DNA of 36,719 nt. Origin: Oscillospiraceae bacterium (GTDB lineage Bacteria > Bacillota > Clostridia > Oscillospirales > Oscillospiraceae). The DNA lies in contig JAFYLI010000155.1 in NCBI GenBank assembly GCA_017537165.1, positions 1 to 36,719 of the forward strand, read 5' to 3'. The position numbers and the translations under genes are program-made. This document shows, piece by piece, positions 18,168 through 34,173 of the stretch (position 1 is its first letter; each line of letters begins with the position of its first letter). The notes beneath the pieces are model-generated. The model was not told the origin of the DNA and ran no database searches. It saw only the letters and a list, made by a program, of their open reading frames with translations.

Positions 18168-18472
18168 GGCGCGTTAGAGCGCGGGGCTTTTGCGAGCCCA
18201 AAATGCGATGAAGCGGGAGATTGCTCGGGCGGTTTCCGAGGTAACTTCCGTGGAGTATGTCCGATAATCGGGCGGCTGGAGAATATCTGTCCCCGGGTAA
18301 ACCACCGGGAATGCAGTGCTGACGCGCTTTTAGTATATCGCTGCGTCAGAATTTAGCCGGCTAAGTATGCCGGCTATACTTCTGTCGCGGAGTGATACGC
18401 ACGGCGGCGGGGATAAGAAATTTCTCAGGTGCGTCCAACCAAACGTACGAACAACAGGAGGAAAACAAGACC
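18168..18472 (+). promoter_or_regulatory. Long structured 5' leader of the S10 operon
   Basis: About 300 nt of mRNA leader without a credible gene. Possible hairpins are GGGC/GCCC (18184-18199), CTCGG/CCGAG (18224-18240), CCGA-TAA-TCGG (18261-18271), CCCGG/CCGGG (18292-18309), CTGACGC/GCGTCAG (18319-18349) and TAGCCGGC/GCCGGCTA (18354-18376). The last has no T run after it. AGGAGG at 18456-18461 serves rpsJ. By analogy with E. coli, where L4 binds the S10 leader, this is a candidate autoregulatory leader. The stems are seen; the ligand is inferred. Confidence 0.6.
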
Positions 18473-24535: not shown

Positions 24536-24551
24536 GGGAGGGTAAACGACA

Positions 24552-25105: not shown

Positions 25106-25291
25106 ATGGCTAAGAAATCTATGATTCTCAAGCAGCAGAGAACCCCCAAGTTTTCCTGCCGCCGTTACAACAGATGCAAGATCTGTGGTCGTCCTCACGC
25201 TTATCTGAGAGACTACGGTATCTGCCGTATCTGCTTCCGTGAGCTCGCTTACAAGGGCCAGCTTCCCGGTGTTAAGAAGGCTTCCTGGTAA
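25106..25291 (+). CDS. rpsN: 30S ribosomal protein S14, zinc-binding form
   Basis: The 61-residue short S14 type with four zinc-ligand cysteines: CKICG at C24/C27 and CRICF at C40/C43. This is the C+ form used when zinc is plentiful; a zinc-free paralogue may exist elsewhere but is not in the window. It begins [19 protein letters not shown] and ends LPGVKKASW, both typical. An unusual 159-nt gap follows before rpsH. Confidence 0.98.
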
Positions 25292-25450
25292 TCCAAGGAA
25301 ACCACCCAATCAGTCAATAGGACGACGAAAGGTCATTGGCAATTAGCTGAGGAAGCGCCGGGCAACCGGTGCTTCCCAAGACATTGGTTTTGATACCTCG
25401 TCGCCTGAACAGGCAAAGCCTGTAACTCTAAACAAGGAGGATATATTAAA
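25292..25450 (+). promoter_or_regulatory. Structured intergenic leader between rpsN and rpsH
   Basis: A 159-nt gap in an operon where most gaps are under 20 nt. Outer helix: CGACGA (25323-25328) with TCGTCG (25398-25403), extended by GGT (25331-25333) with ACC (25395-25397) across a two-A bulge. Inside is an 11-bp hairpin GGAAGCGCCGG / CCGGTGCTTCC capped by a GCAA (GNRA) tetraloop (25351-25376). CATTGG occurs on both sides of the hairpin. Downstream is ACAGGC-AAA-GCCTGT (25409-25423), then the rpsH ribosome binding site AAGGAGG. No promoter was seen. A protein- or RNase-binding regulatory role is inferred. Confidence 0.6.
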
Positions 25451-25849
25451 ATGCAGATCACTGATCCTATTGCGGATATGCTCACTAGAATTCGTAACGC
25501 TAACTCCGCAAAGCACGACACCGTTGATATTCCCGCCTCCAACATGAAGAAGGCCATTGCTGGCATTCTCCAGGAAGAGGGCTATATCAAGAACTTCCAG
25601 ATTATCGACGACGGTACCCAGGGCGTCATCAGAGTCGCTCTCAAGTACAACGCCGGTAAGGAATGCGTTATTTCCGGCCTCAAGAGAGTCAGCAAGCCCG
25701 GTCTGAGAATTTATGCCGGCGCTGACGAGCTCCCCAGAGTTCTCAAGGGTCTCGGTATCGCAATCATTTCTACTTCCAAGGGCATTATGACCGACAAGAA
25801 GGCTCGCGAAGCTCATGTCGGCGGCGAAGTCCTTGCGTTTGTATGGTAA
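25451..25849 (+). CDS. rpsH: 30S ribosomal protein S8
   Basis: S8 binds helix 21 of 16S rRNA and, in E. coli, represses the spc operon by binding its mRNA. It has 132 residues. [18 protein letters not shown] is the signature beginning. The C-terminal block normally containing GISIL(S/T)TSKG appears as [25 protein letters not shown] lies 11 nt upstream in a structured leader. S8 is therefore the first protein to suspect as the ligand of that leader. Confidence 0.98.
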
Positions 25850-32841: not shown

Positions 32842-33792
32842 ATGGTAGAAATTGAAAAGCCTCGCATAGATTGCATTGAAACTCCCGGTGATGATTCCTA
32901 CGGTAAGTTTATTATCGAGCCCCTGGAAAGAGGCTACGGCACCACTCTCGGAAACTCTCTGAGAAGAATGCTCCTCTCTTCCCTGGAAGGTACCGCTATT
33001 ACTTCCGTTAAGATCGCCGGTGTGGCACACGAGTTTTCAACAATACCCGGTGTTAAAGAGGATGTTACTGAAATTGTCCTCAACCTTAAAAGCGTTATCG
33101 CGAGACTTCACTGCGAAGGCACCAAGACCGTTTATATAGAGGCAACGGGCGAGGGCGAGATCACCGCCGGCGACATTAAGGCCGACGCTGAGGTCGAAGT
33201 TCTCAACCCCGACCTCCATATCGCAACTCTCGGCCCCGACGCAACTCTCAATATGGAAATGACCATCAGCAAGGGCAGAGGCTATGTAAGCGCAGACCGC
33301 AACAAGCTTCCTCAGCAGATAATCGGTGTTATTCCCATCGACTCTATCTACACCCCTGTTATCAAGGTAAACTATTCCGTTGAGAACACCCGCGTCGGCA
33401 ACATGACCGACTATGACAAGCTGACCATTGAAGTATGGACTGACAAGACCATCACTGCAAGAGATGCCATCTCCCTGGCTGCAAGAATTCTGTGTGACCA
33501 CTTCACCCTGTTCACCAATCTCAGCGAGGCAATGGGCAGCAAGTCCACCGTAGTTGATAAAGTTGAGAACACCAGAGACAAGGTTCTCGATATGACCATC
33601 GAGGAGCTGGATCTCTCTGTCCGCAGCTTCAACTGCCTCAAGAGAGCTAACATCAATACGGTCGCAGACCTTATCAGCAAGACCGAGGACGAGATGATCA
33701 AAGTCCGTAACCTTGGCCGCAAGTCTCTCGAAGAAGTTATCCATAAGCTGACGATGATGGGCCTGTCCCTCGCCAGCGACGACAATAACTGA
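32842..33792 (+). CDS. rpoA: RNA polymerase alpha subunit
   Basis: A scaffold for RNA polymerase assembly and a contact for UP elements and activators. It has 316 residues. The N-terminal domain shows [26 protein letters not shown], the dimer and beta-contact part. After a linker, the C-terminal domain ([34 protein letters not shown]) holds the helix-hairpin-helix DNA contact. The 71-nt gap before it has a small CGTG/CACG hairpin and GAGGAGGG ribosome binding site. No promoter is obvious. Confidence 0.98.
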
Positions 33793-33831
33793 TACCGTTA
33801 ATACGGTGACCCTGTACGAGGAGGAAATACA

Positions 33832-34173
33832 ATGCCTGGAACAAGAAAACTCGGCAAGACTACTGCCCAGCGTAAGGCGATGCTGAGACAGCAGGTTACC
33901 GATCTGCTCGAGTACGGCAGAATGGAAACCACCATCACCAGAGCTAAGGAAGTTAGACCCCTTGCTGAGAAGATGATCACCCTCGGTAAGAAGAATACTC
34001 TTGCATCCCGCCGCGCCGCCCTTGCATTCATCACCAAGGAAGACGTAGTAACCAAGGTATTCACCGAGATAGCTCCCAAGTACGCCGAGAGAAACGGCGG
34101 CTACACTCGCATCATGCGTCTTGGCGCTCGCCGTGGCGACGCTGCTGAGATGGCAATCATCGAGCTGGTCTAA
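33832..34173 (+). CDS. rplQ: 50S ribosomal protein L17
   Basis: A 50S protein around the exit tunnel. It has 113 residues. [42 protein letters not shown]-type residues, and the terminal [23 protein letters not shown], are the family markers. GAGGAGG precedes it. It is the last gene of the super-operon: a strong terminator begins 24 nt downstream. The ECF transporter and truA/rplM/rpsI genes that often follow rplQ in Firmicutes are not here. Confidence 0.98.

Follow-up and report, generated by a model that had tools for sequence, protein, structure and literature searches.

Within the 36,719-nt stretch of Oscillospiraceae DNA analysed here (the window), the rpsN stop codon ends at position 25291 and the rpsH ATG stands at 25451, so that the gap between them (25292–25450) measures 159 nt, as the preliminary description had stated; the gaps next to it are about 14–16 nt. 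The whole gap folds with a minimum free energy of −56.3 kcal/mol (z −5.10 against dinucleotide shuffles; 0 of 200 shuffles were as good), and the element trimmed to 25318–25445 reaches a z of −7.27. The leader sequence occurs as a single copy in its own genome and is therefore not a repeat, by which a repeat or mobile element reading of the gap was ruled out. No terminator-like site and no T run were found in the window's rpsN–rpsH gap, nor does any promoter stand out there, and the lack of a terminator favours translational control. A transcription attenuator or another control of read-through without a protein ligand, the former also named in the preliminary description, would fit a large gap inside a long operon; however, it is not supported, because the gap contains no terminator-like site, and it leaves the core resembling helix 21 of 16S rRNA (h21), described below, unexplained, and we regard it as very improbable. 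The window's only Rfam match is the S10-Clostridia leader (RF03136, 44.1 bits) at 18200–18275, at the head of the S10 operon.

Comparative data revised the inner part of the fold that had been proposed for this gap. The closing helix CGACGA/TCGTCG (25323–25328 with 25398–25403) is present, but the inner pairing of GGT with ACC was wrong: the pairs are G596–C644, G597–C643, U598–A640, and C599–G639 (E. coli 16S numbering), and A595, U641, and A642 are unpaired or in triples. The 11-bp hairpin with a GCAA loop was likewise described correctly, but the emphasis placed on this GNRA hairpin was not justified, since the apical region that holds it ranges from 4 to about 200 nt and varies freely between relatives; it is therefore not a conserved part, and was rejected as the functional core. 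The third hairpin reported beside the rpsH ribosome-binding site is present and corresponds to P2 (Table 1).

Table 1. Features of the leader upstream of rpsH, in window positions
Feature	Position	Strand	Basis
Whole conserved leader, ending at the rpsH start codon	25315..25453	+	Covariance models R1 (64.9 bits, E 4.5e-17) and R2 (74.1 bits, E 7e-17, sole match in whole genome)
P1 closing helix, 5' strand GGACGACGA, A25322 bulged	25320..25328	+	Covarying pairs
P1 closing helix, 3' strand TCGTCGCC	25398..25405	+	Covarying pairs
S8 core, 5' strand A595 G596 G597 U598 C599 (E. coli 16S numbering)	25330..25334	+	Conservation
S8 core, 3' strand G639 A640 U641 A642 C643 C644	25392..25397	+	Conservation, covariation
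Apical 11-bp hairpin closed by a GCAA loop, in a variable region and not conserved	25351..25376	+	Comparison with relatives
P2 hairpin ACAGGC-AAA-GCCUGU	25409..25423	+	98.1% of cells paired (100-sequence alignment); covariation
AACUCU linker and Shine–Dalgarno sequence (SD) AAGGAGG; weak hairpin P3 CUCU/GGAG over the SD	25424..25440	+	Complementarity; folding in the window
rpsH (S8), presumed regulated gene and presumed ligand	25451..25849	+	Keeps RNA-contacting residues

The loci surveyed were anchored on S8 and drawn from genome records and from 90 genomes of Oscillospiraceae. The rpsN–rpsH gaps of these relatives were mostly about 90 to 600 nt in length, and nearly all ended in the same element, which was located directly upstream of rpsH in 84–85 of the 90 sampled family genomes. 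The first covariance model, built from 45 sequences, recovered the element immediately upstream of rpsH in almost every one of 100 loci, which had been picked because they looked like carriers (at L069 the element lies further upstream). With an E value of at most 0.01, the second model (R2) found it in 85 of the 90 family genomes, L213 being borderline (20.9 bits). Carriers include Flintibacter muris, Pseudoflavonifractor, Colidextribacter, and Lawsonibacter, and the idea that this genome alone might carry an insert thus fails, since close relatives have the same element. Beyond the family, the element was absent from 40 genomes representing 21 further families of the same order, among which the one weak match had no h21 core by eye, and whole-genome scans of the class (n = 343 genomes) and the phylum (n = 348 genomes), whose stricter filters can miss divergent members, placed all strong matches in Oscillospiraceae. 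A covariation-supported RNA standing consistently upstream of its ribosomal protein (r-protein) gene, the pattern by which r-protein leaders are recognised, is what these data reveal.

Several weaker matches were rejected. Those outside the family at L149–L151, L153, and L254–L256 had no rpsH nearby; L152/L242 lay before rpsH at 27 bits, but no h21 core was found in it by eye; and a match in the window itself (33741–33834, 16.6 bits) stood before another r-protein gene and consisted only of a P2-like hairpin and an SD. Five or six of the 90 family members had no recognisable element: G006, G110 (L173, L194), G046 (L193), G028 (L211), and G111 (L212). In G006 and G110, which are congeneric, rpsH is preceded by a different hairpin common to the two, which suggests loss or replacement of the element.

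Other arrangements were also observed at this position. In the families f13 and f15 (L227, L228, L229, L253, L231, and L232), rpsH is preceded by a different conserved order without an h21-like core, consisting of a hairpin, AGAAAAGUGG, a second hairpin, UAACUUCU or a variant of it, and then the SD; ACUUCU could pair with AGAAAAGU or with the SD, and the arrangement is possibly another leader. In Flintibacter and Pseudoflavonifractor, the rpsN–rpsH gap (L008 930–1503 and L018 840–1431) contains a sigma-70-like promoter site (TTGCAA-17-TATAAT and TTGTAA-17-TATAAT, respectively), preceded in L018 by a strong terminator-like hairpin, so that the operon is probably split there. A hairpin GGTCAAACCCGC..GCGGTTTTGATA lies between promoter and leader.

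The helices of the element are supported by covariation. Among 100 homologues, changes in both partners were seen for 17 of the 19 pairs, well in excess of what shuffled and slid controls gave. In the alignment of these 100 sequences (A2), 92.6% of the pair cells were paired, versus 75.9% after shuffling, 336 cells had changed on both sides (94.5 shuffled), and the covariation score was 0.477, versus 0.182 for shuffled and 0.085 or less for slid partners; this alignment leans towards the model structure, because it was fitted to that structure, first derived from alignment A1. A 45-sequence MAFFT alignment that was not fitted to the structure gave a score of 0.375, versus 0.163 shuffled and 0.116 or less slid. 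The mean pairwise identity was 56%, and a filter at 80% identity left 69 sequences, still 93% paired.

A phylogeny-aware test, whose null reshuffles substitutions along a FastTree tree and which is a home-made version of the R-scape idea rather than R-scape itself, detected significant covariation in P1, the core, and P2. Five of the 19 structural pairs passed E < 0.05, namely columns 134–193 (E 7e-10) and 136–191 (E 3e-4) in P2, columns 10–122 in P1 (GC/CG/AU/UA, E 0.006), and columns 20–112 and 22–109. Outside the structure, only columns 213–216 and two pairs linking 641 to 598 and 640 passed. The search for covarying stems in relatives, proposed as a check before this analysis, thus yielded significant pairs, and the objection that no stems might be conserved fails. 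A chance structure, a repeat, or a mobile insert has a negligible probability: nothing in its favour was left after testing, apart from repeat-like inserts that some relatives carry in the P2 loop, and it is refuted by the strong covariation and the family-wide conservation, together with the single copy in the genome.

At its conserved heart, the leader reproduces the core of 16S helix 21 to which S8 binds. Published structures and SELEX experiments assign A595, A642, G597–C643, and 641 to the S8 recognition core, with A642 as the only conserved base-specific S8 contact, alongside the (G597–C643)–U641 interaction and the A595–(A596–U644) triple (PMC4176348). In 97 leaders, A642 and C643 were invariant (97/97 each), and conservation was 99% at A595, 97% at G596, 100% at G597, 98% at C599, 98% at G639, and 98% at C644; the exception on the 5' strand is position 598, which is U or C. 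The trio 598/640/641 reads U-A-U in 51, C-G-A in 39, and U-A-A in three of the 97 leaders, and covaries as a triple against the phylogenetic null. Among the unpaired bases of the P1 domain, A595 and A642 alone are nearly invariant. With A595, G597–C643, 641, and A642 flanked by helix on both sides, the leader has the core and the flanking helices expected of a helix 21-type S8-binding RNA.

The comparison with helix 21 itself, made with the 16S genes of relatives (the assembly has no 16S), agreed with the core of the leader. The relatives' h21 reads AAGUC ... GAAACU, with one variant AAGUU ... AAAACU, and the leaders read A(G/A)G(U/C)C/G(A/G)(U/A)AC(C/U), with the P1 strands in the same 5'–3' order. 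In contrast to 16S, the leader usually has G596–C644 in place of A596–U644 (G–C in most leaders, A–U in few) and an additional unpaired A in the 5' strand, and its apical part differs and varies. At 594, a further unpaired base (A or C) is present in most leaders; leaders of the divergent subgroup have only one unpaired A, as 16S does. The extra unpaired A and the G596–C644 pair of the GG-type core count against an S8 leader. In the divergent subgroup of 13 leaders, most members have an AAGUC/GAUACY core within a longer covarying helix, and this core is even closer to that of 16S h21. This subgroup (A3: L198, L207, L208, L202, L209, L101, L092, L185, L199, L162, L056, L074, and L192) also has a conserved GAA-N-AUGG...CAUUC in the inner helix above the core. 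On the protein side, a gapless alignment with B. anthracis S8 (PDB 4pdb) showed that the S8 of this genome keeps Y88, S107-T108-S109, and E126 of the RNA-contacting surface.

P2 follows P1 by a few bases, and its foot consists of nearly invariant A–U and C–G pairs with AA behind them. In L009, L023, L026, L030, L033, and L038, repeat-like insertions (e.g., GAAGCG..GCGTGACA) are found inside or near the P2 loop, and the foot is kept. The invariant P2 bases AC-NG/CN-GUAA are not explained by h21 mimicry alone. They leave some room for another ligand, either a different r-protein of the operon (e.g., L5, S14, or L6) or a non-ribosomal factor, in which case the likeness to h21 would be coincidental, and other families do carry a P2-like hairpin and UAACUUCU without the h21 core. 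However, both the unpaired bases that are conserved and the triple that covaries coincide exactly with the S8 core, and the element always lies immediately before the S8 gene, making a different ligand improbable. In 88% of 92 leaders, the 7–12 nt linker preceding the SD shows higher complementarity to it than shuffled linkers do (P 1.7e-15, a value that is only indicative because the sequences are related), and RNAalifold independently placed an SD hairpin in the divergent subgroup.

We interpret the gap as an autoregulatory leader that is bound by ribosomal protein S8 and represses the translation of rpsH, a reading to which we assign a probability of about 85%. An S8-binding leader had been listed among the options for this gap, and it is strongly supported by the h21-like core, the covarying helices, and the tie to rpsH across one family. 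Because the leader copies the S8 site of 16S rRNA, S8 can probably switch off its own production. In the mechanism that the mimicry and the position suggest, the P1 domain would serve as a copy of the S8 site on helix 21, and S8 in excess of free 16S rRNA would bind the leader; bound S8 would stabilise P1 and P2 together with the small hairpin P3 that covers the SD, 30S loading on rpsH would be blocked, and the block would extend by coupling (gaps of about 15 nt) to the downstream rplF, rplR, rpsE, and so on. P3 folds in the window, but it is weak (about −3 kcal/mol), and in the lineage with the AAUCU linker it is marginal to nearly absent; this weakness and near absence count against the interpretation. 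A switch in which ACCUC of the core competes with the SD was set aside, because 4–5 bp are unlikely to prevail against P1 and the sign would be wrong.

An unlikely alternative is that the RNA binds S8 and acts mainly on the mRNA: S8 binding, or RNase III cutting in P1 or the apical hairpin, would set mRNA stability and separate the long rplE–rpsN transcript from the rpsH part. Consistent with this are the long helices, including the 11-bp apical hairpin, and those relatives in which a promoter within the gap seems to divide the operon; in E. coli, moreover, S8 exerts retroregulation through mRNA decay as well (PMC10931766). On the other hand, neither the length nor the sequence of the apical hairpin is conserved, the SD-proximal P2 and P3 are among the most conserved parts, and an RNase III site leaves the h21 core without an explanation.

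Feedback control of the spc operon by S8 is a textbook example, but it is known only in Gammaproteobacteria. A 2024 review describes spc-operon regulation outside this class, including that of B. subtilis, as unknown, and reports that an E. coli-like S8 site is missing in B. subtilis (PMC10931766). None of the 4227 Rfam families gave a relevant match, whether gathering or permissive thresholds were applied (the S10 leader elsewhere and two matches due to chance were all that was obtained), and no S8 or rpsH leader outside the known operator was found in the open literature. The Clostridia S4 leader and the further r-leaders described by Eckert and Weinberg (2020, PMC7247131) are likewise r-protein leaders in r-protein operons, and none of the 20 motifs in that study is attributed to S8 or its gene. 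Neither Rfam nor the open papers and the 2024 review consulted thus describe an S8 control RNA built and placed in this way. For a large Clostridia family, the leader offers a concrete and testable answer on spc control, and it provides roughly 100 natural variants of the S8 site, with two forms of the 598/640/641 triple among them. It also suggests that S8 mimics of rRNA have arisen in a second form and at another location within the operon.

In E. coli, an mRNA mimic of 16S helix 21 at the rplX–rplE junction serves as the S8 operator of the spc operon, and it shares with the present leader the helix 21 mimicry, S8 as the (here presumed) regulator, the operon, a triple (in the leader a predicted one) matching A595–(A596–U644), and the invariant A642 (PMC4176348, PMC10931766). 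The E. coli site lies at the rplE start, whereas the leader here stands directly before rpsH, and the expectation of an arrangement other than that of E. coli was borne out. The h21 strands of the E. coli operator are permuted (U644 equivalent at mRNA +11, A595/A596 equivalents at +80/+81), but here they run in the 16S order, and P2 and the SD hairpin follow the mimic, unlike in E. coli. The rpsN–rpsH gap is 33 nt in E. coli versus 159 nt here, and the rplX–rplE gap here is 16 nt (24536–24551), which leaves no room for an E. coli-type operator in that gap, an argument that covers the gap and not sites reaching into the coding region. The SELEX aptamer of B. anthracis S8 (PDB 4pdb) shows the same replacement of A596–U644 by G–C in an isosteric triple and a stacked A642 equivalent (PMC4176348), although it has a symmetric internal loop and another base order. 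The leader is therefore likely to function in the manner of the E. coli operator, although it does not belong to the same RNA family. With its helix 21 mimic in the 16S strand order, its conserved P2, and its SD hairpin, it is likely to represent a distinct, independently evolved Oscillospiraceae type of S8 leader and the first S8 operator to be described outside Gammaproteobacteria, in which the spc operon would be divided into an rplE-side part uncontrolled at rplE and an S8-controlled part from rpsH onwards.
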